From a virus: a stretch of DNA of 31,134 nucleotides. This document shows positions 2,656 to 31,062 of the stretch, piece after piece; positions within the stretch are counted from its first letter, which is position 1, and each line of letters starts with the position of its first letter. Below the pieces are notes generated by a model, which was not told the origin of the DNA, ran no database searches, and saw only the letters and a program-made list of their open reading frames with translations. The position numbers and the translations under genes are program-made. The DNA lies in the IMG/VR virus record IMGVR_UViG_3300042879_001547, positions 1 through 31,134 of that record; one strand, written 5' to 3'.

Positions 2656-2853
2656 ATGAAAATGACTAAAGAGGCACAAGCAGTCGCAGATGCTATTGAA
2701 GAAGTGAGATTTGACTGGGGTGATATGGAACAATCTCATCCTCATACTATTGCTGTTGCTACTCTTCGTAAAGTTGTAGAAGAACTCAAGTGGATTGGTA
2801 TTACTGAAAAGAACATTCTTGAACTTGCGAATGAACTGGAGGAACTGAAATGA
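2656..2853 (+). CDS. Small helical protein, unknown (65 aa)
   Basis: ATG 2656 is 9 bases after TGGAGG, a good Shine-Dalgarno distance, so I prefer it to ATG 2662, which carries the recurring ATGACTAA sequence. The body EAQAVADAIEEVRFDWGDME and the ending LELANELEELK are helical and acidic; the ending resembles the protein at 1795-2004. Confidence 0.6.
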   Translation: MKMTKEAQAVADAIEEVRFDWGDMEQSHPHTIAVATLRKVVEELKWIGITEKNILELANELEELK

Positions 2854-3074
2854 CTAACGAAGAAAAACTCACACTTCTCCTCAAGGTTCTCAAAGAATAC
2901 GCAGAGGTAAAACACTGCTATGATGTATATGGAGATGATTATACTCCAAGTGCTGGTAGTTATGATGATGCCTTTGAAGATGGTTGTGCTTATGGTGAGA
3001 TTACCTTTGCCCGCACTATGCTAGAATGTATTGGTGAAAAGTTTGAATACCCTTGTATGAAAGAAAATGACTGA
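2850..3074 (+). CDS. Small acidic protein, unknown (74 aa)
   Basis: ATGACTAA start overlapping the previous stop by 4 bases. The middle is Tyr/Asp-rich (YDVYGDDYTPSAGSYDDAF), followed by a helix with CAYGEITFARTMLE. Three cysteines are present, in no recognised metal-binding spacing. Confidence 0.6.
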   Translation: MTNEEKLTLLLKVLKEYAEVKHCYDVYGDDYTPSAGSYDDAFEDGCAYGEITFARTMLECIGEKFEYPCMKEND

Positions 3075-3252
3075 ACGAGTAAAATTCGCACAAGTATCCA
3101 GAGTAATCTGCCCCAAGACTGGTGTTCATTATCTTGATGCGATTAGTGCAGATGGAATTCATTACTCTGCTGAAATGTCTCCTAATATTGAAAAATGGTT
3201 AGTTTTTACCAAACCTTGGAGTGCCAACCGACAACAACCATTAGACCTATGA
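3067..3252 (+). CDS. Small unknown protein (61 aa)
   Basis: Starts at ATGACTGA. The sequence reads as short beta strands (VSRVICPKTGVHYLDAIS). Its stop is inside the next ATGACTAA junction. Not recognised. Confidence 0.6.
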   Translation: MTERVKFAQVSRVICPKTGVHYLDAISADGIHYSAEMSPNIEKWLVFTKPWSANRQQPLDL

Positions 3253-3476
3253 CTAAACATCCAGCAAACGATTGGGACTTTGATGATACAATTGAAGAAG
3301 AATTTCAGGAATGGTTTAATGACCTTAATGGTGGTTTTGCACTTCGTAGTGAATATTTTTTCGGTGATGCGGAGGTAGAAGATGTGAAGACCCGTCAGGA
3401 TTTGATGTATAAGTGGGTTCATTCCGCATTTTTGGAAGGATACAAGATGGGTAAGTTTAGTAAGCATAATAAATAA
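3249..3476 (+). CDS. Small acidic protein with EGYKMG motif (75 aa)
   Basis: I choose ATG 3249 because it is the ATGACTAA junction overlapping the upstream stop; an in-frame ATG at 3195 would add 18 residues lying in the coding region of the previous gene. The acidic half (DWDFDDTIEEEFQEWFND) is followed by AFLEGYKMGKF, like the motif in the proteins at 2072 and 4734. It is the last gene before a terminator. Confidence 0.6.
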   Translation: MTKHPANDWDFDDTIEEEFQEWFNDLNGGFALRSEYFFGDAEVEDVKTRQDLMYKWVHSAFLEGYKMGKFSKHNK

Positions 3477-3511
3477 TATTGCTTATGTGTGTCGCAACCA
3501 TAGCAGAGATT

Positions 3512-3533
3512 GGGTGCTTTCGGGCACCTTTTC
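3512..3533 (+). terminator. Intrinsic terminator
   Basis: GGTGC (3513-3517) pairs with GCACC (3524-3528) around a six-base loop and is followed by TTTTCTT. It ends the string of early-type genes and lies directly before the late promoter. Confidence 0.7.
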
Positions 3534-3536
3534 TTG

Positions 3537-3544
3537 TATAAATA
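3537..3544 (+). promoter_or_regulatory. T4-type late promoter TATAAATA
   Basis: An exact TATAAATA, the late promoter consensus recognised by the gp55-type sigma factor of T4-like phages. It starts four bases after the terminator's T tract and 29 bases before the gene at 3573. Confidence 0.75.
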
Positions 3545-3572
3545 GTATTGCGGCACAACATAAAGCAGAACT

Positions 3573-4295
3573 ATGGAACTCAAAGAGTATCACTATGTCT
3601 ATTATTCCTATGAGGAATATGGTAGAGGATATTTTGGTAGTAGAACTTGTAAATGCTTACCTGAAGAAGATGTAAAATATTTTGGTTCTTTTCACGATAA
3701 GACATTCAATCCAACACAGAAGATAATTTTGAAAAGTGATTATGCTACAAGAGAGGAAGCATATGCAGATGAAATTATTTTACAAGAATACTATAAGGTA
3801 ATTGAAAATCCACACTTTGCTAATAAATCATATCAAACCTCTACAAAATTCTGCTATACACCATCTTTTGAGGAGGCAAGTATGAGAGGAAAAAAACAAC
3901 ATAAAAACAAATTGGGAATGTTTCAACTTACAACAGAAGAAAGAGTTGAACTTGGAAAAAGAAATGGTGCCTATACAAGAGATAATAAACTTGGTATATT
4001 TACACTAACAAGTGAAGAATTATCTGCTTCTGCTAAAAAAGCATATGCAAATGGACTTGGAAAATTACCAAAAGAAGTGCGAAGTGAGTATGGTAGAATG
4101 GGAGCAAGAATACATATGCAAAATGGAACTGGTATTTTTTCACTAACACCAGAACAAAAAAGTGAATTATCAAAAAGAAATAACGCACAAAAATGGATGT
4201 GCCTTGAAACTGGTTATGTTTCTAACTCTGGTGGTTTATCAAAATACCAGAAAGCAAAAGGTATTGATACTTCTAAAAGGAAACGAATAGCATAA
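3573..4295 (+). CDS. GIY-YIG-like putative homing endonuclease with repeats (240 aa)
   Basis: Residues 1-90 carry a diverged GIY-YIG-type nuclease domain of a kind I associate with T4-like phages: YVYYSY (8-13), GYFGSR (19-24, with Arg24), and EEAYADEIIL with Glu67 as a possible catalytic acid. Four copies of a roughly 24-residue unit follow, starting near residues 114, 140, 162 and 186 (LGMFQLTTEE, LGIFTLTSEE, LGKLPKEVRS, TGIFSLTPEQ), probably DNA-binding modules. A C-terminal segment (205-238) has LETGYVSNSGGLSKYQKAKG. Such genes are usually selfish free-standing elements that cut phage DNA. It sits alone behind a late promoter, unlike its neighbours. The ribosome binding site is weak. Confidence 0.7.
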   Translation: MELKEYHYVYYSYEEYGRGYFGSRTCKCLPEEDVKYFGSFHDKTFNPTQKIILKSDYATREEAYADEIILQEYYKVIENPHFANKSYQTSTKFCYTPSFEEASMRGKKQHKNKLGMFQLTTEERVELGKRNGAYTRDNKLGIFTLTSEELSASAKKAYANGLGKLPKEVRSEYGRMGARIHMQNGTGIFSLTPEQKSELSKRNNAQKWMCLETGYVSNSGGLSKYQKAKGIDTSKRKRIA

Positions 4296-4353
4296 GGACA
4301 CTTTACAAACTGGAACACGGGCACTTGAAATCAGGTGCCCTTTGTTATATAAT
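4296..4353 (+). promoter_or_regulatory. Punctuation cassette 3
   Basis: GGACACTT (4296-4303), four bases, AACTG (4308-4312) in CTGGAACA; gap of 30 bases from 4317 to TATAAT (4348-4353). TTGAAA (4325-4330) lies 17 bases before the -10 and is a fair -35 element. A strong hairpin occupies the gap. Confidence 0.75.
4319..4345 (+). terminator. Intrinsic terminator inside cassette 3
   Basis: GGGCAC (4319-4324) pairs with GTGCCC (4335-4340) around a ten-base loop, then TTTGTT. Its T tract merges with the -10 box of the next promoter. Confidence 0.7.
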
Positions 4354-4359
4354 GTCCTT

Positions 4360-4737
4360 ATGAAACAATCAACTCAAATGAAAGACCTTGAACTGGGACA
4401 AATGCTATTCGGCAATCCCACAGAGGAATATAGTGTTCCTCGTGAGAAATGGATGGGTGGTCCATTCCAAATCTTGATTGATGCGATTACAGAAAAGACA
4501 GGAGAAAAAGATTATGGATACACTCCACATTTCTCCAACGACTTCTTTACTATTCGTCCTTATTATTGGGGGGATGAAGAAGATGAAATTGATAAACCTA
4601 ACTTTGAAATCCCAAGTGAAAACTTCCGTTTGACTTGGTATAAGTATCCTTTTAGGAGTTCTTATGCGAGTGAGAAACTTACTCCAAAGAGGTGGAACGA
4701 CATTATTCAAAAATGTATTAAGAGTTTGGAAGAATGA
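4360..4737 (+). CDS. Conserved-looking phage protein with LGQMLFGNP motif (125 aa)
   Basis: ATG 4360 lies seven bases past the -10 box, so the mRNA may begin at or next to the start codon (leaderless); no ribosome binding site is visible. The motif ELGQMLFGNP near the N terminus resembles short phage proteins I have seen in unrelated phages, but no function is known to me. The C-terminal half is Tyr/Trp-rich, ending in a helix (KRWNDIIQKCIKSLEE). Confidence 0.7.
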   Translation: MKQSTQMKDLELGQMLFGNPTEEYSVPREKWMGGPFQILIDAITEKTGEKDYGYTPHFSNDFFTIRPYYWGDEEDEIDKPNFEIPSENFRLTWYKYPFRSSYASEKLTPKRWNDIIQKCIKSLEE

Positions 4738-4946
4738 CTGACGAACAAATCCTTGAACTTGCTAAAACCTATGGGTTTGATAGACACATAAGTAAAACAA
4801 CACACGACATTTACTGGGAATGTGATGAAGATGACCTCTTGAAGTTTGCCCGAGAACTCTATGATGAGGGTTATACTAAAGGTTTCAAAGTAGGGCACGA
4901 TGCTGGTTGGGAACTAAATGAAGAAGTATCACGCAGAGGATTATGA
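4734..4946 (+). CDS. Small acidic protein with DEGYTKGF motif (70 aa)
   Basis: ATGACTGA start. A helix (EQILELAKTYGF) is followed by WECDEDDLLKFARELYDEGYTKGFK (given as a contiguous region at residues about 28-52). The last part matches the Tyr/Gly motif seen in the proteins at 2072 and 3249. I believe similar small proteins occur in other phages. Role unknown. Confidence 0.6.
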   Translation: MTDEQILELAKTYGFDRHISKTTHDIYWECDEDDLLKFARELYDEGYTKGFKVGHDAGWELNEEVSRRGL

Positions 4947-5089
4947 CTTACGAAGTTCAAACTTGGGATGACGTAGATAAAACTGTGTATTATGAAACCG
5001 TAGAGGATGCTATTGATTATGAGAGTGCTCGTGATATAATTGTAGAGAAGTATCCAAATCGTAAAGTAATTGCTGTGATTAGAAAATGA
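4943..5089 (+). CDS. Very small protein, unknown (48 aa)
   Basis: The ATGACTTA start overlaps the previous TGA and the stop overlaps the next ATGACTGA. The product is acidic at the N terminus (MTYEVQTWDDVDKTVYYETV) and ends in a basic strand (NRKVIAVIRK). The perfect fit between two coupled genes is the main support. Confidence 0.6.
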   Translation: MTYEVQTWDDVDKTVYYETVEDAIDYESARDIIVEKYPNRKVIAVIRK

Positions 5090-5805
5090 CTGAATTTCAA
5101 CCAACTCCACAAACACCAGAGCAAGTAGATGAAGGTCTGCGTAATGCTTTTAGACAAGCAATGAAAGATGGTGTGATGGATGCTACTCCTTACCTGAAAC
5201 AAATGACTTACAAATCCGATATTCAAAAAACTGAAAAAGAAATTGCCGTCTTACAAAAAAAACTTGAACTCCTCAAAGAGATTGAAACACATAAATCTCA
5301 ACCAAGAATGAACCTTCAATTTAATGTTAAGGGTGAGGTTGTCTCTTATAATGATGAGGTTTATTATCGTCTTGAATTTACTGATGGAAGTCATGGTTGG
5401 TATAAGAAAAAACATACTGTTGATGGTTTAGTAATGGTTGCTATTACTGATGGTGAAACTCGTCGTTTGCTTGAAGGATTATGGTTTAATGATGTGAAGA
5501 AGGGGAAGTATGATGAACCTTATCGTAATGTGAGAGCATATTGGGATGAGAAAGATAATCCTGCTTCATACATTACCGATGAGGTTGTGAATAGGTTAGT
5601 GAAAAAATATCAAGCACAAAAACTTTTTAATAGATTGGTAGATGAACTTGGTTATGATTTTGATGCTTGTAATGATGTTGTAGATTTGGTGGAGAGTTGG
5701 TTGCCTGAACCTCAATCAGCAGCAGGAAGTCAAAATGTAGATACTGAATTGCTTGTTGATGGGTTTAATCATTGCTTGCAAAAAATGAAGGAGATGCTAC
5801 GATGA
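5086..5805 (+). CDS. Unknown protein with coiled coil (239 aa)
   Basis: Starts at ATGACTGA. Residues about 44-71 form a likely coiled coil (KTEKEIAVLQKKLELLKEIE); a beta-rich middle (about 76-125) contains a Tyr-Arg-Leu-Glu-Phe strand and a GSHGWYKKKH turn; the rest is helical. The coiled coil suggests an oligomer. I cannot name a family. It is the largest product of this six-gene string. Confidence 0.7.
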   Translation: MTEFQPTPQTPEQVDEGLRNAFRQAMKDGVMDATPYLKQMTYKSDIQKTEKEIAVLQKKLELLKEIETHKSQPRMNLQFNVKGEVVSYNDEVYYRLEFTDGSHGWYKKKHTVDGLVMVAITDGETRRLLEGLWFNDVKKGKYDEPYRNVRAYWDEKDNPASYITDEVVNRLVKKYQAQKLFNRLVDELGYDFDACNDVVDLVESWLPEPQSAAGSQNVDTELLVDGFNHCLQKMKEMLR

Positions 5806-6242
5806 CTGAACATAATCTCCCTGTGCCTGATGATATGTCGTGGGTTAATCTCACTCAAGAAGAAGTAGAAGAACTCCGCAACAAAAAACACGAATTGACT
5901 GAATATGGCAAAGAACAACTGAGGAAACTTATGAAAAATCAAGAACCATATCCCGACGAAATGTTTGAGGAAGCCGAACGTCGTGAAAAGAGTAATCGTG
6001 TTCTACAACGATATAATGACTTCTACAATATGGAATGTGCTGGACTTCCTCACGGTACACCTATCACACCAGAACATCAACAAATGATTGCATTCCAATC
6101 TATGATTGACGCTCTGCGTTGTGAGAACCTGAATCGTGAGTATAATGAGATTACTATTTCTGATATTGAGGATTTGATTGCACGATTGGATGAACAAGCG
6201 ACTGAATTTCTTAAAAGAGTTGAAAAACTAAAGAATGAATGA
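5802..6242 (+). CDS. Unknown highly charged helical protein (146 aa)
   Basis: ATG 5802 is the ATGACTGA junction and lies 8 bases after AAGGAG, the best ribosome binding site in this string. The product is dense in Glu, Lys and Arg with almost continuous helix prediction by eye, ending DEQATEFLKRVEKLKNE. Not recognised. Confidence 0.65.
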   Translation: MTEHNLPVPDDMSWVNLTQEEVEELRNKKHELTEYGKEQLRKLMKNQEPYPDEMFEEAERREKSNRVLQRYNDFYNMECAGLPHGTPITPEHQQMIAFQSMIDALRCENLNREYNEITISDIEDLIARLDEQATEFLKRVEKLKNE

Positions 6243-11580: not shown

Positions 11581-11737
11581 TAGTCTTAAAATTACACAAA
11601 ATGAGGATGGTTCCTTCACAATGGACTGGGACCCAGAGGACCCAAACTGGAAGTGGCTCAATGGGTTGACTTCCAAAGAAATTCAAGTTATTATGGAACA
11701 AGCAATTCAGAGCAAACTCGATGACCTCCGACTTTGA
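11570..11737 (+). CDS. Small acidic conserved cyanophage-type protein (55 aa)
   Basis: MTADSLKITQNEDGSFTMDW, DPEDPNWKWLNGLTSKEI and a helix make a short recognisable pattern of cyanophage genomes. It overlaps the gene before by 11 bases and the next by 17. Role unknown. Confidence 0.65.
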   Translation: MTADSLKITQNEDGSFTMDWDPEDPNWKWLNGLTSKEIQVIMEQAIQSKLDDLRL

Positions 11738-12503
11738 TTATAAAAAGTATTCACTCGAAAAACTGCAAGACTGGGTTCATGATGCCCTAAGCACGGGTGA
11801 AGCATCACCTCACGAAATCTACTCTGCGATTCGTGAAGCAGTTCGTGAAGATTACTACTACTATAAAGATCATACCAGTCGTGCTTCTGGACTTCTTGAA
11901 CTATTGAGTGGTCATCGTCCTGTTAAAGATGCAAAATGGGATGAGTGGGAACAAACACATTATCCAGAAGAAGTTAAAGATGATGGTATGCGTCCATGGG
12001 GTCATAGTGATCTAGAATATCAAGTTGCTAATAATAAAAAAGGTACATTTGTTGGATGGAATTATACCGCAACAGGTGAAAAAGTTTCTGAGCAACCATC
12101 AAAGAATGGTGTCTCCAATCTAGAATATACAAAAGCAAAGATTGAGGCAAATTCATCCTGGAATGATGGATTTACTCGTGAATACTATCAAAAGATTGTT
12201 GATAAGTATGAAGGTAAACAAGATAAAGTAAAGAAGTGGGTTCTTCCTGTTGAAGAAGTCAGAGATGAAGATACTGATAAAGATGAATATTGTGTAACAT
12301 TCCCTGAGGATCTTCTAGAAGCAGCAAATCTGAAAGAAGGTGATCAAGTCGAGTGGATAGATAAAGGTGATGGTTCTTATCTTCTCAAAAAAGTTGAGAA
12401 ATCAATGACTCATCAAGAAATGCTTGATGCTGGATATTGGATGACCGATGATGGTTTTTGGATGAAAAAATCCAAAGAAGAAATTGCACCAGATCAATGT
12501 TGA
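11721..12503 (+). CDS. AbrB-like domain protein with central insertion (260 aa)
   Basis: Residues 1-66 (starting MTSDFDYKKYSLEKLQDWV) and 193-229 (YCVTFPEDLLEAANLKEGDQ followed by a VEWIDKGDGSYLLKKV strand pair) match a protein I remember as conserved in T4-like cyanophages. The second part has the look of a SpoVT/AbrB swapped-hairpin DNA-binding domain. Between them, about residues 75-160 form a hydrophilic segment that contains SDLEYQVANNKKG and SNLEYTKAKIEAN, two related pieces, and seems longer than in relatives I recall. About 30 residues follow the AbrB-like part. Likely a DNA-binding regulator; the target is unknown. Confidence 0.65.
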   Translation: MTSDFDYKKYSLEKLQDWVHDALSTGEASPHEIYSAIREAVREDYYYYKDHTSRASGLLELLSGHRPVKDAKWDEWEQTHYPEEVKDDGMRPWGHSDLEYQVANNKKGTFVGWNYTATGEKVSEQPSKNGVSNLEYTKAKIEANSSWNDGFTREYYQKIVDKYEGKQDKVKKWVLPVEEVRDEDTDKDEYCVTFPEDLLEAANLKEGDQVEWIDKGDGSYLLKKVEKSMTHQEMLDAGYWMTDDGFWMKKSKEEIAPDQC

Positions 12504-13285: not shown

Positions 13286-14461
13286 ATGGTTTCTCCAGCG
13301 TATGTTGTTGGTTATGGAATGATCGATGCTTTAGGTAATAATCCAGGTGATTGTTTCCTGAATATGGTGAATAATAATGATTATTCTGTTGAGTTAGACT
13401 TTATGGGTGATCATAAGATTCATCGTGGTATTCCTGTCGATGATTCTTTGCTGCAACTTCCTGAGGAGTTTACTCCTAAGATTCTTGCTAACATGACCCG
13501 AGCACAGCAATTTGCACTTCATGCGACCGATCAGGCATTAAAGATGTCTGGTCTTCCTTTGTCTTCAAATGTTGCTGTGATTGTATCATCGGTTTCGAAC
13601 GATGTGGAGTTTTTGGATGGTAACTTTCAGAAACTAAAGGATAATAAGAGAGTTAATCCATTTAAGGTTGTCAATCGTATTCCTGATATTATTTCAGGAC
13701 AGATTTGTAGTCATTATGGTTTTATGGGAGCATCTTTTGCACTCTATGCTTCTTGTGCAACGGGAATGTACTCGCTTGATTATGCGATGCGAATCCTTGA
13801 TGAATATGATTATGTCATCGTTGGTGGTGCAGATGCTGGTGTATTTGAGATTGCAATGAAATACTTTGCTGCCATTGGTGCTCTTGGAAATACCAATGCA
13901 CCTTTCGATGACAGCAGAGAAGGGTTTGTAATGGGTGAGGGTGCTGGTGTTTTGATTCTGCAGAGTGAAGAGAAGGTCCAAGAATTTAATAGCACTAAAC
14001 ACGCTAAACTGTATCCTGTTGGTGCTGGATCTGATGCTTTTGATCTCACTGCCCCTGCTGATGATGGGCGAGGAGCAAAGATTGCACTTGACAAAGCACT
14101 CAAGGGAATTGATCGTATTGATGCTGTAAATGCACACGCTACATCAACTCCTGTTGGTGATCCTGTAGAGTATCAAGTTATCACGGATAGATACCCTAAT
14201 ACTCCAATCTATGCACCAAAGAGTAAGATTGGACATACTCTTGCTGCTGCGAGTATTCTTGAGGCAATCTATGCAATCGTATCAATGAAGAATAAATTGA
14301 TTCCTCATTGCCAAAATATGGTAGAATGTTCTTATGATGTACATAAAGTTCTTGTAAAAGAACCAACTGCAATGACTGGTGATGTATTGAGAACTCTCAA
14401 CAATTCATTTGGATTTGGTGGTAAATGTGCTTGTCAAGTTATTGAGGTGAGTCATGACTGA
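13286..14461 (+). CDS. Beta-ketoacyl-ACP synthase II-like enzyme (391 aa)
   Basis: A full-length condensing enzyme of the KAS I/II (FabB/FabF) thiolase fold, slightly shorter than the usual 400-415 residues. The catalytic set is intact: Cys157 in ASCATGMYS, His284 in NAHATSTPVGDPVE, Lys314 and His317 in KSKIGHTLAA, plus the C-terminal NNSFGFGG loop (372-379). The family joins an acyl chain on the Cys with malonyl-ACP. No ACP, ketoreductase or acyltransferase gene is in the window, so it would have to use host partners or modify a single step. AAGGAG precedes the ATG by 5 bases. It overlaps the first oxygenase gene by 8 bases in an ATGACTGA junction, so the three genes are probably made together. 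Confidence 0.88.
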   Translation: MVSPAYVVGYGMIDALGNNPGDCFLNMVNNNDYSVELDFMGDHKIHRGIPVDDSLLQLPEEFTPKILANMTRAQQFALHATDQALKMSGLPLSSNVAVIVSSVSNDVEFLDGNFQKLKDNKRVNPFKVVNRIPDIISGQICSHYGFMGASFALYASCATGMYSLDYAMRILDEYDYVIVGGADAGVFEIAMKYFAAIGALGNTNAPFDDSREGFVMGEGAGVLILQSEEKVQEFNSTKHAKLYPVGAGSDAFDLTAPADDGRGAKIALDKALKGIDRIDAVNAHATSTPVGDPVEYQVITDRYPNTPIYAPKSKIGHTLAAASILEAIYAIVSMKNKLIPHCQNMVECSYDVHKVLVKEPTAMTGDVLRTLNNSFGFGGKCACQVIEVSHD

Positions 14462-20221: not shown

Positions 20222-21346
20222 ATGGGCGCTGGTTGCACCAAAGATCATTTCATTCAGGATGCTGCAGAAGCGTACATTGTGTACCTTCTGCAAGCACATG
20301 CTGTTGAGAATGAAGTTGCCATTACTGATGATGTGATTCAAAAGCATCACACTTTCACTCAGTATTGTGAGGATCGTGATGTGCTGGATGAGTTTAACAA
20401 GAGTGTCTACAAGGAAAACATTGATGCTGTTGTTGATAAGTTCTTTTCTGATTTGCTTGCCAAGTATCCTGGACGCAAGTTTGACTTTGTAGATGTTGAG
20501 CGTGAGTTTAGGGATAAGAAACTGAAAGGTGATTTTGTCATTCAGTTTGAGGATGCTTCCACTGTTTCTTTCTCTCTCAAGAACTACAAAAAAGGTTTTA
20601 ATCGCATTCAGTTGTGCTCTGGTACTTGGCACTCTTTTCTGAATAATTTCTTGTTCGAATCTGCTGGCGTTGGTACATTCATTGATCCTTTCACTCAAGA
20701 GGTATTTCAGGGATGTGATCGTGAATATCGTGATGATCTGATTGAGAAACTGGGTTATAGTGCTCTCAAAGATGTGTATAACTTCTTTGACACTGTGAAT
20801 GATACCATCAAAGAGTTTTACACTTATGGTGAGCAAGCACGTTACTGGAGTAATGTGTCTTCTCAGTGGAAGAGTGATTGTGCATCCTATGGTCTGAAAG
20901 CAGCAGAAACTATCATCTCTGCTCTGGATTCAATCTCTAAAGATGCAGTTAAGAGTCGCATCATCAAGATGGCAGGACTCAACTATGATGAGGAGATTCT
21001 GCTTGTTGGTAAGGGCAAATATCTGTGCTCCCTGTTTAATCAGAAGTATGCACAGATTCTGGAGCGTGTCAACTCTGATGAATCTGTGGTAGAATATACT
21101 ACAAATAAGAAGGGTGTTCTGTTCACTCTGCGTGATTCTGCTGGTGTGATTGTGAGCATCGAAGTTCCTTTCACTCTGCAAAAGAATGGTGCCTGGTATC
21201 TTCCTAAAGCGAAATACTCTGGTGCTCAATATCACGAGAAGGAAGGTGTTGACCTGGTTCATGGTGAGCGCCGCCCTAAGAAGTCTAAGGAGATTTCTAC
21301 CTCTATCAATACCTATCTTAATCTCAAGAAAGCAGGAGTGTGCTGA
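20222..21346 (+). CDS. Candidate PD-(D/E)XK restriction-type nuclease (374 aa)
   Basis: Not recognised as a named family. Residues 102-124 read KGDFVIQFEDASTVSFSLKN and KKG: Asp104 in a GDF turn, a strand, then Ser118-Leu-Lys120. An Asp followed by a strand ending SxK is how many type II restriction enzymes present a PD-(D/E)XK site. The N-terminal 95 residues are helical, and the C-terminal part has strand-rich segments (VLFTLRDSAGVIVSIEV) and a basic end. It is the first gene of a three-gene string with two DNA methyltransferase genes, bounded by cassettes 8 and 9, which fits a restriction-modification set. A methyltransferase helper or specificity protein is the alternative. Confidence 0.5.
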   Translation: MGAGCTKDHFIQDAAEAYIVYLLQAHAVENEVAITDDVIQKHHTFTQYCEDRDVLDEFNKSVYKENIDAVVDKFFSDLLAKYPGRKFDFVDVEREFRDKKLKGDFVIQFEDASTVSFSLKNYKKGFNRIQLCSGTWHSFLNNFLFESAGVGTFIDPFTQEVFQGCDREYRDDLIEKLGYSALKDVYNFFDTVNDTIKEFYTYGEQARYWSNVSSQWKSDCASYGLKAAETIISALDSISKDAVKSRIIKMAGLNYDEEILLVGKGKYLCSLFNQKYAQILERVNSDESVVEYTTNKKGVLFTLRDSAGVIVSIEVPFTLQKNGAWYLPKAKYSGAQYHEKEGVDLVHGERRPKKSKEISTSINTYLNLKKAGVC

Positions 21347-22242
21347 TGCAGTTTGATGTTGTGGCAACGAATCCCCCATTTCAGGATTCTACAAAGAAGA
21401 AGAAAACACAACACAAATTGTGGATTGATTTCACACAACGTGCATTTGATAAGTGGTTAAAACCTGGAGGAATTCTCCTTCAGGTTTCTCCTAGTAGTTT
21501 TCTATCACCATCCAATAAGATCCTGAAGATCTTCCAAGAAAAGATGGTGCTGTTTCTGAATCTTGATACCAAGAAATACTTTCCCGATGTTGGAAGTACC
21601 TTTGCAGATTATGCAATCGTAAACACTAGCAGTAGGTTTCAGCAAACACAAATCACTACAGATAGTGGTACTTTTCTGAAAATACTTGACAATTCTGTAT
21701 TCTATCTTCCGAATGATATCTGTGAGGAAGCGTATGCAGTTCATAAGAAAGTTATCTTCGATCAAAAGGATAAGTTGGATGTTAGGTATGATTATGTGAC
21801 CTGTCACAACGTGCTGATTCATCGCAATGATACCATCAGCAAGGTCAAGACCGATGTTCACATTCATCCTATCTTCCATACAAACTCTCAGGTCTGGTAT
21901 TCACAAGTTCGGCAGGATTGGGCAGACAAGAAGAAGGTAATGTGGTCCCGCAGTGGATATACAAAACCATTCTATGATAATGGTGTGTATGGTGGAACTG
22001 ATATGGCATATTATGTGTTGGTTCCTGATGATGAGAGTGGTCTCAATCTATTGAGCAATCTCAATACAAAGTTGATGAAGTATATCCTAAAGACTGCCAA
22101 GTGGTCTGGATTTGGTAATGAGAAAGTATTCCGTGCATTGCCAAATCTTCCGATGGATCGTAGACTGTCAGATCTGGAAATGTATGTGTTGTTTGGATTA
22201 ACCGAAGAAGAGAGAGATTATGTTGAGAACCACGTGGGATAA
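21346..22242 (+). CDS. DNA adenine methyltransferase, catalytic/target part (298 aa)
   Basis: The protein begins MQFDVVATNPPFQD, so the catalytic motif IV (NPPF, residues 9-12) stands at the very N terminus. PGGILLQVSPSSFLSPSNKI follows as in Eco57I/TaqI-type adenine methylases. The region after residue 150, with VMWSRSGYTKPFYD and AKWSGFGNEKVFRALP, resembles target-recognition parts of these enzymes. The SAM-binding motif I is missing and is instead encoded by the next gene. ATG 21346 follows AGGAG at 8 bases and shares a base with the upstream stop. The product probably needs its downstream partner to be active. Confidence 0.75.
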   Translation: MQFDVVATNPPFQDSTKKKKTQHKLWIDFTQRAFDKWLKPGGILLQVSPSSFLSPSNKILKIFQEKMVLFLNLDTKKYFPDVGSTFADYAIVNTSSRFQQTQITTDSGTFLKILDNSVFYLPNDICEEAYAVHKKVIFDQKDKLDVRYDYVTCHNVLIHRNDTISKVKTDVHIHPIFHTNSQVWYSQVRQDWADKKKVMWSRSGYTKPFYDNGVYGGTDMAYYVLVPDDESGLNLLSNLNTKLMKYILKTAKWSGFGNEKVFRALPNLPMDRRLSDLEMYVLFGLTEEERDYVENHVG

Positions 22243-22675
22243 GATCAGGGATTGCATGAACGATCACACCTATATGGGTGAGATTGATCGTGATGCCTAT
22301 CGGATCAAGGCAACAGCAGAAATCTTCACGCCCACCGACCTGGTGATTAGGATGCTGCAGCGGGTGAACCTGAGCAATTTTGCTCCTGGCAAGACGGTGC
22401 TCGATCCTGCCTGTGGTGATGGGCAGTTTCTCACTGGAGTCAAGTGGATTAAGGTCTTATTTCACAATATGAGCGAAGAAGATGCCCTAAAAGACATCTA
22501 TGGGGTGGATATTATGCGAGATAATGTAGAACTTTGTAAAAAGCGGTTGGGAGGCGGCACGATCCTGCTAGGGGACGCTCTCAACCCCGAAAAACGCATA
22601 AAAGATCAAAGTGATGCTGAACATGATCAAATGCGGAGGTTGTTTCTAAATCAGGTTACGGTGTTCCTGGATTGA
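22220..22675 (+). CDS. DNA adenine methyltransferase, SAM-binding part (151 aa)
   Basis: Contains motif X (AEIFTPTDLV, 33-42), motif I (LDPACGDGQFL, 61-71), motif II (YGVDI, 94-98) and a motif III-like LLGDALNP (116-123), then ends without motif IV. It is therefore the missing half of the methyltransferase encoded just before, with which it overlaps by 23 bases. Order of halves is reversed relative to gamma-class enzymes and matches the beta-class order. ATG 22257 is an alternative start. Cassette 9 begins five bases after its stop. Confidence 0.75.
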   Translation: MLRTTWDKIRDCMNDHTYMGEIDRDAYRIKATAEIFTPTDLVIRMLQRVNLSNFAPGKTVLDPACGDGQFLTGVKWIKVLFHNMSEEDALKDIYGVDIMRDNVELCKKRLGGGTILLGDALNPEKRIKDQSDAEHDQMRRLFLNQVTVFLD

Positions 22676-28994: not shown

Positions 28995-29120
28995 CATTTA
29001 GGTTAATTGATGAGAATGCTGGTTCTTGTAGCAACCTTTACCTGTATAGCATAAGACGCGGAGTTTGTCAAGCCCCACCCCCCGCGCCAGGTTCCCAGAC
29101 CCACACAAGACTCATAAGAT

Positions 29121-29407
29121 CTCGACGAGACGCCCGAGTCTTATAATTCTCGACGAGATACACATCAGATATCATTATATCAGCATTCCTTAACAAATCT
29201 CGACGAGAATACATATATACTCATATCTCGACGAGAACGGGTGAGCATAAGGGCTTGCAATCTCGTCGAGATATGTGCTACAATCATACAATCAATCATC
29301 AATCTCGACGAGCTATGTACGACGACTACGATCTCGACTATACATACGCAACAGATTACTCATACGATCTCGACGAGTATTATGCACAAGATGCAGAGCT
29401 CGACGAG
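29121..29407. repeat. CTCGACGAG repeat cluster 1
   Basis: Full copies start at 29121, 29149, 29199, 29227, 29304, 29369 and 29399, with one reversed copy (CTCGTCGAG, 29262) and one partial (29333). Most read TCTCGACGAGA, a dyad with five-base arms around a single A. Distances are 28-50 bases. The last three lie within the gene at 29315. Candidate protein-binding iterons. Confidence 0.8.
29255..29284 (+). promoter_or_regulatory. Promoter with a repeat in its spacer
   Basis: TTGCAA (29255-29260), 18 bases, TACAAT (29279-29284): a good sigma-70-type promoter. The reversed repeat CTCGTCGAG (29262-29270) fills the first half of the spacer and another copy (29304) sits just before the gene, positions expected of operators. 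Confidence 0.6.
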
Positions 29408-29464
29408 GATTATGCACGAGATGGGCAAGATTACGAAACGCTTGCATATCGTCATTACGCATGA
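29315..29464 (+). CDS. Tyr/Asp-rich acidic small protein built on DNA repeats (49 aa)
   Basis: MYDDYDLDYTYATDYSYDLD begins a product with about twelve Asp, four Glu and eleven Tyr among 49 residues and few basic residues. The repeat CTCGACGAG is read in frame as Leu-Asp-Glu (YDLDE, AELDE). I start at ATG 29315, downstream of the predicted promoter; an in-frame ATG at 29273 lies upstream of the likely transcript start. High acidity fits a DNA-mimic type protein, but coding status is uncertain because the repeat itself generates this composition. Confidence 0.45.
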   Translation: MYDDYDLDYTYATDYSYDLDEYYAQDAELDEDYARDGQDYETLAYRHYA

Positions 29465-29653: not shown

Positions 29654-29711
29654 GTGCCAGTTTGAGATCTGGCACAAGACCCCTTGATCTCTGCCACGTG
29701 GTGGATTAATA
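29654..29711 (+). promoter_or_regulatory. Punctuation cassette 11
   Basis: GTGCCAGTT (29654-29662), four bases, ATCTGGCACA (29667-29676): seven-base perfect outer arms. After a gap of about 28 bases comes ATTAATA (29705-29711); TTGATC (29684-29689) may be a -35. CCAC and GTGG (in 29693-29703) can form a small hairpin in the gap. Confidence 0.65.
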
Positions 29712-29735: not shown

Positions 29736-29882
29736 ATGTGTGGTCCTGCCTTCGATTATACCTTCGAAGATTTCCTGAATGATGCTTCCCCCGAAGAATG
29801 GGCGGAATGGGAAAACAAAGCGGCAGAACTTGAGTTGCCTGTGGACTACTATGTCCAGGAGTTCGTTGCTTGTGCCAGTTGA
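29736..29882 (+). CDS. Small acidic protein (48 aa)
   Basis: MCGPAFDYTFEDFLNDASPE, EEWAEWENKAAELE and LPVDYYVQEFVACAS. The final Cys-Ala-Ser-stop is spelled by the left arm of cassette 12. The layout resembles the protein at 24693. Function unknown. Confidence 0.6.
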   Translation: MCGPAFDYTFEDFLNDASPEEWAEWENKAAELELPVDYYVQEFVACAS

Positions 29883-29931
29883 GGAAGTGGCACAATGAGG
29901 GTTTACAGGGTCCCTGAGTCCTGGTAAATTA
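29872..29931 (+). promoter_or_regulatory. Punctuation cassette 12
   Basis: GTGCCAGTT (29872-29880), four bases, AAGTGGCACA (29885-29894); gap of 30 bases; TAAATTA (29925-29931), with TTTACA (29902-29907) as a -35 at a spacing of 17. It is followed by CATTCGTCGCTGAGA, nearly repeated in cassette 13. Confidence 0.65.
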
Positions 29932-30162: not shown

Positions 30163-30353
30163 TGGAATTCGTTAACTACGTGAAGTCTTTCTATGGTCCT
30201 GGTGGAATTTATGATATGGGTGCCACCAATGAGATGATCATCGATGCCACATTTAAATATATCACCAGTGGTGCTCATTTTTGTGGTGATAGTTTTGATC
30301 GTGAACACGTGCGGGATATTATGATCGATGAGTTCGGGCTTGTGCCAATCTGA
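30162..30353 (+). CDS. Small conserved cyanophage-type protein (63 aa)
   Basis: ATG 30162 begins on the last base of the upstream TGA, 7 bases after GGAGG. FVNYVKSFYGPGGIYDMG, then FCGDSFDREHVRDIMID: the FYGPGGIY and GDS-DRE-VRDI pattern is one I associate with cyanobacterial phages. Its last codons form the left arm of cassette 13. Function unknown. Confidence 0.7.
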   Translation: MEFVNYVKSFYGPGGIYDMGATNEMIIDATFKYITSGAHFCGDSFDREHVRDIMIDEFGLVPI

Positions 30354-30400
30354 GAACTGGCACACACCCCCTTGCGGTCCTGACCAATCCGTTCTACATT
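30342..30400 (+). promoter_or_regulatory. Punctuation cassette 13
   Basis: GTGCCAATC (30342-30350), four bases, AACTGGCACA (30355-30364); gap of 29 bases; TACATTA (30394-30400), with TTGCGG (30372-30377) as a possible -35. It serves the ArdA-like gene. Confidence 0.65.
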
Positions 30401-30424
30401 ACATTCGTTCCTGAGACACACACC

Positions 30425-30904
30425 ATGCTGACTGGTTCCAACCTGCTGAACAAAGTGAACGAAATGCAGGCACAAAACCCGCCTGCTAAGATGTCTGAAA
30501 TCGTTCGTGCCTGTGGGTATGAGCGTGATGGCAAACTCAAGTATACCGAATTCTACACTGAGTTGCTGACTGTCAAGGGACTGATCAACAATGATGTTCT
30601 GGAGGAGAATGAGATCTCCGAAGAGTATCAGGAAGTGTACACCAAACTCTGTGAAGATTATGGTCGTGATCCTGTGAATGCATTCCTTGAACTGCACGAT
30701 GATGAGTCGCTGCTTGAGTACTTCGAAGATTCGTATCAGGGTCGTTATGATTCTGAGGCAGACTTTGCTGAAGAGTTTACCACCAATGTGTATGCGTTTG
30801 ATGCACCTTCGTTCGTGGTAGTTGATTGGGATGCTACCTGGAACTGCAATCTTCGTTATGATTTTGATTTCGAAGATGGGTTCGTGTTCAGCAAAAACTT
30901 CTAG
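30425..30904 (+). CDS. cyAbrB-like domain fused to an ArdA-like antirestriction domain (159 aa)
   Basis: Residues 1-53 (LTGSNLLNKVNEMQ, EIVRACGYERDGKLKYTEFY, ELLTVKGLI) follow the N-terminal pattern of cyanobacterial AbrB regulators (LTG-LL-KV, CGY, FY-ALL-AKG). Residues about 68-159 follow the C-terminal parts of ArdA: NAFLELHDDESLLEYFEDSY, QGRYDSEADFAEEF, a WNCNLRYDFDFEDGFVFSKN end. ArdA is an elongated acidic mimic of B-DNA that blocks type I restriction enzymes; this half is indeed very acidic. The protein is similar in length to ArdA (about 165 residues), with its first domain replaced. It is likely to act early against host restriction. The domain calls rest on motif recall. Confidence 0.7.
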   Translation: MLTGSNLLNKVNEMQAQNPPAKMSEIVRACGYERDGKLKYTEFYTELLTVKGLINNDVLEENEISEEYQEVYTKLCEDYGRDPVNAFLELHDDESLLEYFEDSYQGRYDSEADFAEEFTTNVYAFDAPSFVVVDWDATWNCNLRYDFDFEDGFVFSKNF

Positions 30905-30910
30905 AAAAAT

Positions 30911-30979
30911 CTAGTCGAGACGCGCATCATCATCAGTAATCTCGACGAGATGCGCGTCATTCATCATAATCTCGACGAG
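30911..30979. repeat. CTCGACGAG repeat cluster 2
   Basis: A variant CTAGTCGAGA (30911-30920) and full copies at 30941 and 30971; shortened forms occur near 31005 and 31091. Spacing of 30 bases and flanks such as CGCGCATCAT are shared. The cluster starts just after the ArdA-like gene. Beyond it, to the window end, I see no gene. Confidence 0.75.
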
Positions 30980-31035
30980 ACACACATCATCATCTAGATA
31001 CACATCTCGACACACATATGCACATCTAGATACAA

Positions 31036-31062
31036 TTCTCAATAAGGTCTAGTTATTGAGAA
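31036..31062. repeat. Inverted repeat, second copy of the bracketing dyad
   Basis: TTCTCAATAA (31036-31045) and TTATTGAGAA (31053-31062) are perfect ten-base arms around GGTCTAG. The arms match those at 28966-28994. Confidence 0.6.

Follow-up and report, generated by a model that had tools for sequence, protein, structure and literature searches.

The locus and its surroundings

The stretch of DNA analyzed here, hereafter called the window, is the whole of IMG/VR record IMGVR_UViG_3300042879_001547 (31134 bases), which is possibly a fragment and resembles the T4-like cyanophages S-SRM01 and S-PM2 in patches (bases 1-24900 compared). It contains a gene (Table 1) whose ATG is the first start codon past the preceding in-frame stop and whose GC content is 45 %, against 39 % for the window. 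By sequence comparison, the encoded protein consists of the N-terminal domain of cyAbrB, a cyanobacterial AbrB regulator, joined to an acidic unit corresponding to domains 2-3 of ArdA. On the same comparisons it is neither a canonical ArdA, as it lies below the Pfam cut-off and has no domain 1, nor a cyAbrB, as it has no AbrB domain. A second copy was not found in the window: an HMM of the C-terminal part matched no further window ORF, and an HMM of host cyAbrBs matched no further window ORF below E 2.

Table 1 Features of the cyAbrB-ArdA fusion gene and its upstream DNA.
Feature	Position	Strand	Remarks
GTGCCA...TGGCAC hairpin	30342..30363	+	Third of three; over the end of the upstream ORF
Conserved leader TTACATTCGTTCCTGAGA	30399..30416	+	Begins 26 nt before the ATG
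Fusion gene, 159 aa	30425..30904	+	ATG at 30425, stop at 30902-30904
cyAbrB N-terminal domain, residues 1-53	30425..30583	+	HMM, hhalign, BLASTP, model
Cys30 codon of the R-A-C-G-Y motif	30512..30514	+	Taken to correspond to the glutathionylated cyAbrB2 cysteine
Linker, residues 54-61	30584..30607	+	Low model confidence, residues 56-61 at pLDDT <50
Acidic ArdA-like part (domains 2-3), residues 62-159	30608..30901	+	Pfam, PHROG, hhalign, model, charge

In several relatives, the leader TTACATTCGTTCCTGAGA precedes the fusion gene by an equal distance, and in exact form it occurs in 44 of 358 loci; it is absent at the corresponding place in the aligned upstream stretches of two loci, L007 and L022. 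Promoter-like sites near the gene were no more numerous than expected by chance (8 found against 6.0 expected, sd 2.8), and we therefore do not claim the leader as a promoter. Hairpins of the GTGCCA...TGGCAC type, of which none is expected by chance, lie over or beside the ends of small ORFs at 29654-29675, at 29872-29893 and at the position given in Table 1; about 35 nt after the latter two, a leader TTACATTCGT..CTGAGA stands ahead of the next gene. Many copies of TCTCGACGAG, both direct and inverted, flank this block of small genes at 29100-29420 and 30916-31039. Scans for Rfam families and tRNAs gave no match in the window.

Several other genes of the window were recorded. A beta-ketoacyl synthase (13286-14461; Pfam ketoacyl-synt, E 3e-27, plus the C-terminal domain) adjoins a gene with an Asp/Asn beta-hydroxylase domain. 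The 260-aa ORF at 11721-12503 has a MazE/AbrB-like stretch at residues 192-227 (Pfam MazE_antitoxin, E 3.5e-5, 24.1 bits, just below the cut-off). An Eco57I-type methylase domain is encoded at 21340-22242 (Pfam, E 1.6e-8) and is followed at 22220-22675 by an ORF that looks methylase-like by eye; together they are perhaps a split or rearranged modification gene.

The N-terminal part is related to host cyAbrB

From the sequence alone, the preliminary description had read the first 53 residues as the N terminus of a cyAbrB and the remainder as the later domains of ArdA, and had proposed profile searches of both halves and structure prediction as checks. Both assignments were borne out. An HMM built from 12 host cyAbrBs only matched residues 1-53 of the ORF (E 5.2e-10), and one built from nine cellular ArdAs only detected the C-terminal part at E 8.3e-8. 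When 5000 shuffles of the same protein were scored with these two models, the best values were 0.03 and 0.0021, respectively, which rules out chance resemblance of either part. In hhalign, the N-domain profile matched cyAbrB with a probability of 99.4 % (E 9.5e-22), and in BLASTP residues 1-53 were identical to a cyAbrB of Synechococcus WH7803 at 27 of 58 positions (E 1e-13). The identity to one WH7803 paralogue amounts to 55 %, whereas the WH7803 paralogues share 42 % with each other.

A scan of the genomes of 84,980 species, in which an alignment of phage-type N-terminal parts only (A2) served as the query, returned 458 stretches, 311 of them encoding a relative. The best 80 of these 311 were all cyanobacterial and 44-53 % identical over a span of residues 1-53 to 1-58, and an AbrB-like domain comes after the N-domain in those of the best 80 whose sequences were inspected. 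Nine long open frames considered as fusions of the N-domain to large host proteins were rejected, as all nine are ordinary cyAbrBs with an open frame upstream. In the proteins scanned, the cyAbrB N-domain is spanned by no Pfam family. The AbrB-like DNA-binding domain PF14250 begins at residue 48 in the WH7803 cyAbrB and at residue 38 in two other cyAbrBs, so that it leaves the greater part of the N-domain uncovered, and annotation and family scans miss this part. PF14250 itself had no match in the fusion protein at E 10, nor in the record at E 1.

Modeled alone (36 sequences; pLDDT 88.0, pTM 0.68), the N-domain is predicted to form three helices (residues 4-15, 23-29 and 40-51) with a short beta hairpin between the second and third. 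Structural comparison with VIA gave weak rows that included several helix-turn-helix proteins, such as 7bef_G (Z 4.3, rmsd 2.5, 46 residues aligned) and Lrp 2gqq (Z 2.9, rmsd 2.8, 43 aligned), while Foldseek returned nothing at E <1 for the N-domain model.

The C-terminal part is an acidic relative of ArdA domains 2-3

The Pfam ArdA profile (PF07275) matched residues 60-137 with E 0.015 and 16.4 bits, against a cut-off of 27 bits; the match covers profile positions 59-135, and its late start implies that ArdA domain 1 is absent from it. PHROG 36653, 'anti-restriction protein', matched residues 61-159 at E 5.6e-17, and hhalign of the whole fusion against the nine cellular ArdAs aligned columns 71-145 only (96.8 %, E 2e-10), such that residues ~70-147 of the fusion protein match ArdA domains 2-3. 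An AlphaFold2 model of the whole protein (32 sequences; pLDDT 84.8, pTM 0.56) had ArdA 2w82_B as its best VIA-align row (Z 6.6, rmsd 2.5, 82 residues aligned, model residues 74-157 on chain residues 75-164), and the next row followed at Z 4.3. This structural match comes from VIA as a second look and not from Foldseek, which found nothing below E 1.1 for the whole-protein model. Sequence searches of the PDB with the protein, the fusion profile and the N-domain profile gave no match and missed ArdA itself, an NCBIfam scan of the fusion protein gave weak chance matches only, and Pfam at E 10, in which ArdC-N was sought, returned ArdA alone.

By composition, the C-terminal part of the window protein has a net charge of -24 over 106 residues, and the fusion ORF has the strongest negative charge per residue among the 27 window ORFs examined (-0.145; median -0.038). 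Over 49 complete fusions, the mean net charge is -24.6 for the C-terminal part (range -19 to -30) and -0.8 for the N-domain.

The preliminary description would have fallen if the N-terminal part were simply the usual first domain of ArdA. This is ruled out by two results. First, hhalign of the N-domain profile against ArdA gave no match (probability 0.2 %, E 0.37, 13 columns). Second, a 250-aa protein of genome G272 (L248:1745-2497) has the N-domain followed by a complete three-domain ArdA, with the Pfam ArdA profile matching residues 77-231 on positions 1-144 at 83.4 bits, classical first domain included. A first domain of the IYVACL.SYN..L.G.W type was sought in the window protein by hhalign and Pfam and is absent. 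In a 224-aa protein of the viral contig L271, the N-domain lies ahead of a longer, divergent ArdA and probably also stands before a domain 1. Above the cut-off, ArdA was found in 11 of 292 genomes of a phylum sample and in 4 of 350 of a family sample; an ArdA bearing the N-domain occurred in one genome per sample, both times G272. The G272 gene lies in an island-like chromosomal stretch (L349, C1:1934000-1953500) with a tRNA-Val within 20 kb, and some ORFs there look, by eye, like those of a tyrosine recombinase, a ThiF-type protein and a large helicase/primase.

Occurrence in phages and hosts

Among 349 loci, the N-domain was present in 305 ORF entries, of which 95 have an ArdA part, 190 are AbrB-like by motif and 20 belong to neither group. 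The 95 fusion entries correspond to 50 distinct sequences, since some contigs were counted more than once, and 49 of these are complete. The remaining 20 comprise 15 distinct sequences, which by eye are four fusions truncated at contig ends, six further AbrBs, the L248 protein and four other proteins. A tblastn search with the window protein against phages matched 27 records. Translation revealed the fusion in the isolates S-CBP1, DSL-LC07 and WH11-B, all T7-like cyanophages, and matches over 92 % of the query, which are candidates for the same architecture, were obtained for 7B11-B and S-B28. The translated proteins of S-PM2 and S-TIM54 have no N-domain, although BLAST spanned 92 % of the query for S-PM2. 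Judged from these sequences, the joining of a cyAbrB N-domain to ArdA is widespread in cyanophages. The isolate proteins are annotated as 'antirestriction' or 'hypothetical'; S-CBP1 infects Synechococcus CB0101 and WH11-B infects WH7803.

In S-CBP1, WH11-B and DSL-LC07 (3/3), the block ahead of the phage RNA polymerase gene has the fusion as its fifth annotated gene. In these three genomes, gene order thus places it among the early genes of T7-like cyanophages, in what we take to be the counterpart of the T7 zone where ocr lies.

Of 201 picocyanobacterial genomes, 197 encode N-domain proteins and 64 encode HSDR_N, counts that may miss cases in incomplete genomes; a cyAbrB-type target is thus near-universal in these hosts, whereas the type I R subunit is not. 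Complete cyAbrB homologues (~105-166 aa) are also present on many viral contigs (L177, L180, L186, L203, L273, L330 and others), with two on L273. The N-domain further occurs in large picocyanobacterial proteins with a hydrophobic N-terminus and long repeats (L245:632-2401 and 2740-6072, minus strand; L246:1721-6130, minus strand), the repeats of the 589-aa L245 protein being Pfam LRV, and at the front of a 388-aa protein with a BRCT domain at its end (L247:1469-2635, plus strand; Pfam, E 1.1e-12).

Conservation and selection

Five residues (G4, L7, G31, G36 and Y44) are invariant in all 49 complete distinct fusions. For 22 close relatives including the window, dN/dS was 0.22 in the N-domain and 0.23 in the C-terminal part, indicating purifying selection on the two parts alike. 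At the protein level the N-domains are on average more similar (50.9 % identity versus 41.8 %), but dS is lower there as well and dN/dS is equal, so that the higher identity is no sign of tighter selection on this domain.

In the N-domain tree, the fusions require three label changes, one of which involves a wrong label: L165, labeled viral_AbrB, is a fusion cut by the contig end. The starred branches force at least two changes, one cause being the mislabeled L165. In the ArdA tree, the S-PM2-type proteins are placed among the fused ones, a placement that would fit loss of the N-domain. Both trees are built on few columns (60 and 98) and weigh little on a single versus a repeated origin of the fusion.

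The window protein has three cysteines, C30 in the CGY motif and two in the C-terminal part. The CGY cysteine is the only one in 13 of 14 other cyanobacterial cyAbrBs and lies at position 28-36 over all 14; it is taken to be C34 of cyAbrB2 in PCC 6803. Over the 49 complete fusions, this position is Cys in 34, Ala in 14 and Ser in one; S-CBP1, DSL-LC07 and WH11-B have Ala.

Discussion

The literature background was taken from the available parts of PMC9241938, PMC13421787, PMC4264147, PMC11368403, PMC5512222, PMC3969726, PMC7824862 and PMC8501957. In these parts, cyAbrB2 is reported as an H-NS-like nucleoid protein with AT-rich targets and a proposed role in protection from foreign DNA, an interaction between cyAbrB1 and cyAbrB2 is reported, and one cyAbrB paralogue is reported to be essential in Synechocystis. 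Glutathionylation of the cyAbrB2 cysteine reportedly affects oligomerization and DNA binding, according to the accessible part of a review, while an eLife paper states, in the part at hand, that earlier studies gave no biochemical data on cyAbrB2 oligomerization. A mapping of the role of the N-domain within cyAbrB was not found in the portions of the literature surveyed. The preliminary description had suggested that the fusion might pair with host cyAbrB, bind restriction enzymes or dimerize. These functions appear plausible, because an interaction of cyAbrB1 with cyAbrB2 and an H-NS-like nature of cyAbrB2 are reported, and because the N-domain resembles one host paralogue no less closely than the paralogues resemble each other.

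Since the protein joins a cyAbrB domain to a DNA mimic, it would most simply be a decoy for cyAbrB. We tentatively favor, with a probability of about 0.4, an early counter-defense protein of cyanophages in which a host-derived targeting domain directs a DNA mimic at host cyAbrB. The N-domain would associate with host cyAbrB, which shares this domain and is believed to assemble into homo- and hetero-oligomers; it would thereby bring the acidic, DNA-like ArdA surface to the AbrB DNA-binding face. This could pull cyAbrB away from the incoming AT-rich DNA of the phage and from host promoters, in the manner of phage proteins that antagonize H-NS-type silencers. Inhibition of type I restriction enzymes by the ArdA part may come in addition, and in the Cys-bearing lineage the association may depend on redox state through the conserved cysteine. 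A more specific version, in which the protein joins cyAbrB in mixed complexes and removes these from phage DNA, making it a redox-tunable anti-silencing protein of cyanophages and of a tRNA-linked island, is doubtful. We know of no earlier counter-measure against a cyanobacterial nucleoid protein.

For a decoy acting on cyAbrB we count the domain homologies, the ArdA match of the model, the acidity of the C-terminal part, the purifying selection and kept residues, the early gene position in all three isolates, the near-universal cyAbrB-type target in picocyanobacterial genomes compared with the less common type I R subunit, the reported cyAbrB biology and the precedent of LUZ24 gp4. Against it we count that S-PM2-type ArdAs do without the N-domain, that Ala replaces Cys in the T7-like fusions read, that dN/dS of the N-domain is no lower than that of the C-terminal part, that type I R subunits are present in about a third of the host-family genomes (64/201), and that the weak helix-turn-helix look-alikes of the N-domain model (Z up to 4.3) make DNA binding possible.

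Ordinary anti-restriction through inhibition of type I (or BREX-like) enzymes by the ArdA part, with an N-domain that only stabilizes or dimerizes the protein in place of domain 1, is possible, though on balance we think it unlikely. The homology and acidity of the C-terminal part and the hosts with HSDR_N agree with it, the N-domain occupies precisely the place of the missing domain 1, and ArdA proteins are said, in the part of the literature seen, often to carry long N- or C-terminal extensions. However, the L248 protein, and probably that of L271, add the N-domain before ArdA domain 1, which argues against a mere substitute, and the N-domain derives specifically from a host DNA-binding regulator. 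We regard as improbable that the N-domain is itself a helix-turn-helix-like DNA binder that brings the ArdA part to the entering phage DNA, a role that has been suggested for ArdC-N of polyvalent proteins. Its predicted three-helix fold and the weak helix-turn-helix-type matches point that way, the N-domain is joined to other architectures in hosts, and ArdC-N joined to ArdA offers a conceptual precedent in the available text of PMC5512222; yet the Z-scores are within the range of common arrangements, the near-neutral N-domain is attached to a strongly acidic partner, and cyAbrB already possesses a separate AbrB DNA-binding domain. That the protein is a phage transcription regulator or autoregulator using the N-domain as in cyAbrB, with a degenerate ArdA-like part as spacer, is very improbable, for although viruses carry complete cyAbrB homologues too, the ArdA-like part is under purifying selection with its net charge kept in 49/49 complete fusions, and the AbrB domain is absent.

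If the protein is indeed a decoy for cyAbrB, this would establish an action of cyAbrB against phage DNA, which has so far only been suggested, and the phage protein would be a tool for switching cyAbrB off. Even if it only blocks restriction, it defines a mobile cyAbrB N-domain without a Pfam match here and explains early cyanophage genes annotated as hypothetical or antirestriction. S-CBP1 and WH11-B are isolates that encode the fusion and are amenable to immediate testing.

Comparison with known systems

A description of a cyAbrB-ArdA fusion was not found in the literature searched, which left subscription journals mostly outside. The polyvalent ArdC-N + ArdA proteins described by Iyer et al. 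2017 (PMC5512222, in the part available) likewise join ArdA to a possibly targeting domain, but the partner domain differs; the same text reports few polyvalent proteins in cyanobacteria. The part seen of PMC7824862 concerns AbrB domains of jumbo phages in general.

The C-terminal part of the fusion is homologous to domains 2-3 of ArdA (Tn916 Orf18, PDB 2w82) and shares its strong acidity, whereas the fusion has the cyAbrB N-domain instead of a domain 1 and remains below the Pfam cut-off. The S-PM2-type cyanophage ArdA (YP_195106) has related domains 2-3 but a different N-terminal part without the cyAbrB domain. With cyAbrB1 and cyAbrB2 the fusion shares the N-terminal domain of ~53 residues including the CGY cysteine, but it has the acidic ArdA part in place of the AbrB DNA-binding domain. 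By translation, the proteins of S-CBP1, DSL-LC07 and WH11-B have the same architecture as the window protein, and matches were also obtained in 7B11-B and S-B28; the former three differ in the Cys to Ala replacement and in a longer C-terminal part.

T7 gp5.5 and T4 Arn are phage antagonists of nucleoid silencers, and to our knowledge the fusion has no sequence relation to proteins of this kind. LUZ24 gp4, a phage antagonist of MvaT according to the available part of the literature, resembles the fusion in its proposed action, which would relieve silencing by a host nucleoid protein; unlike such antagonists, the fusion borrows a domain of the target family.
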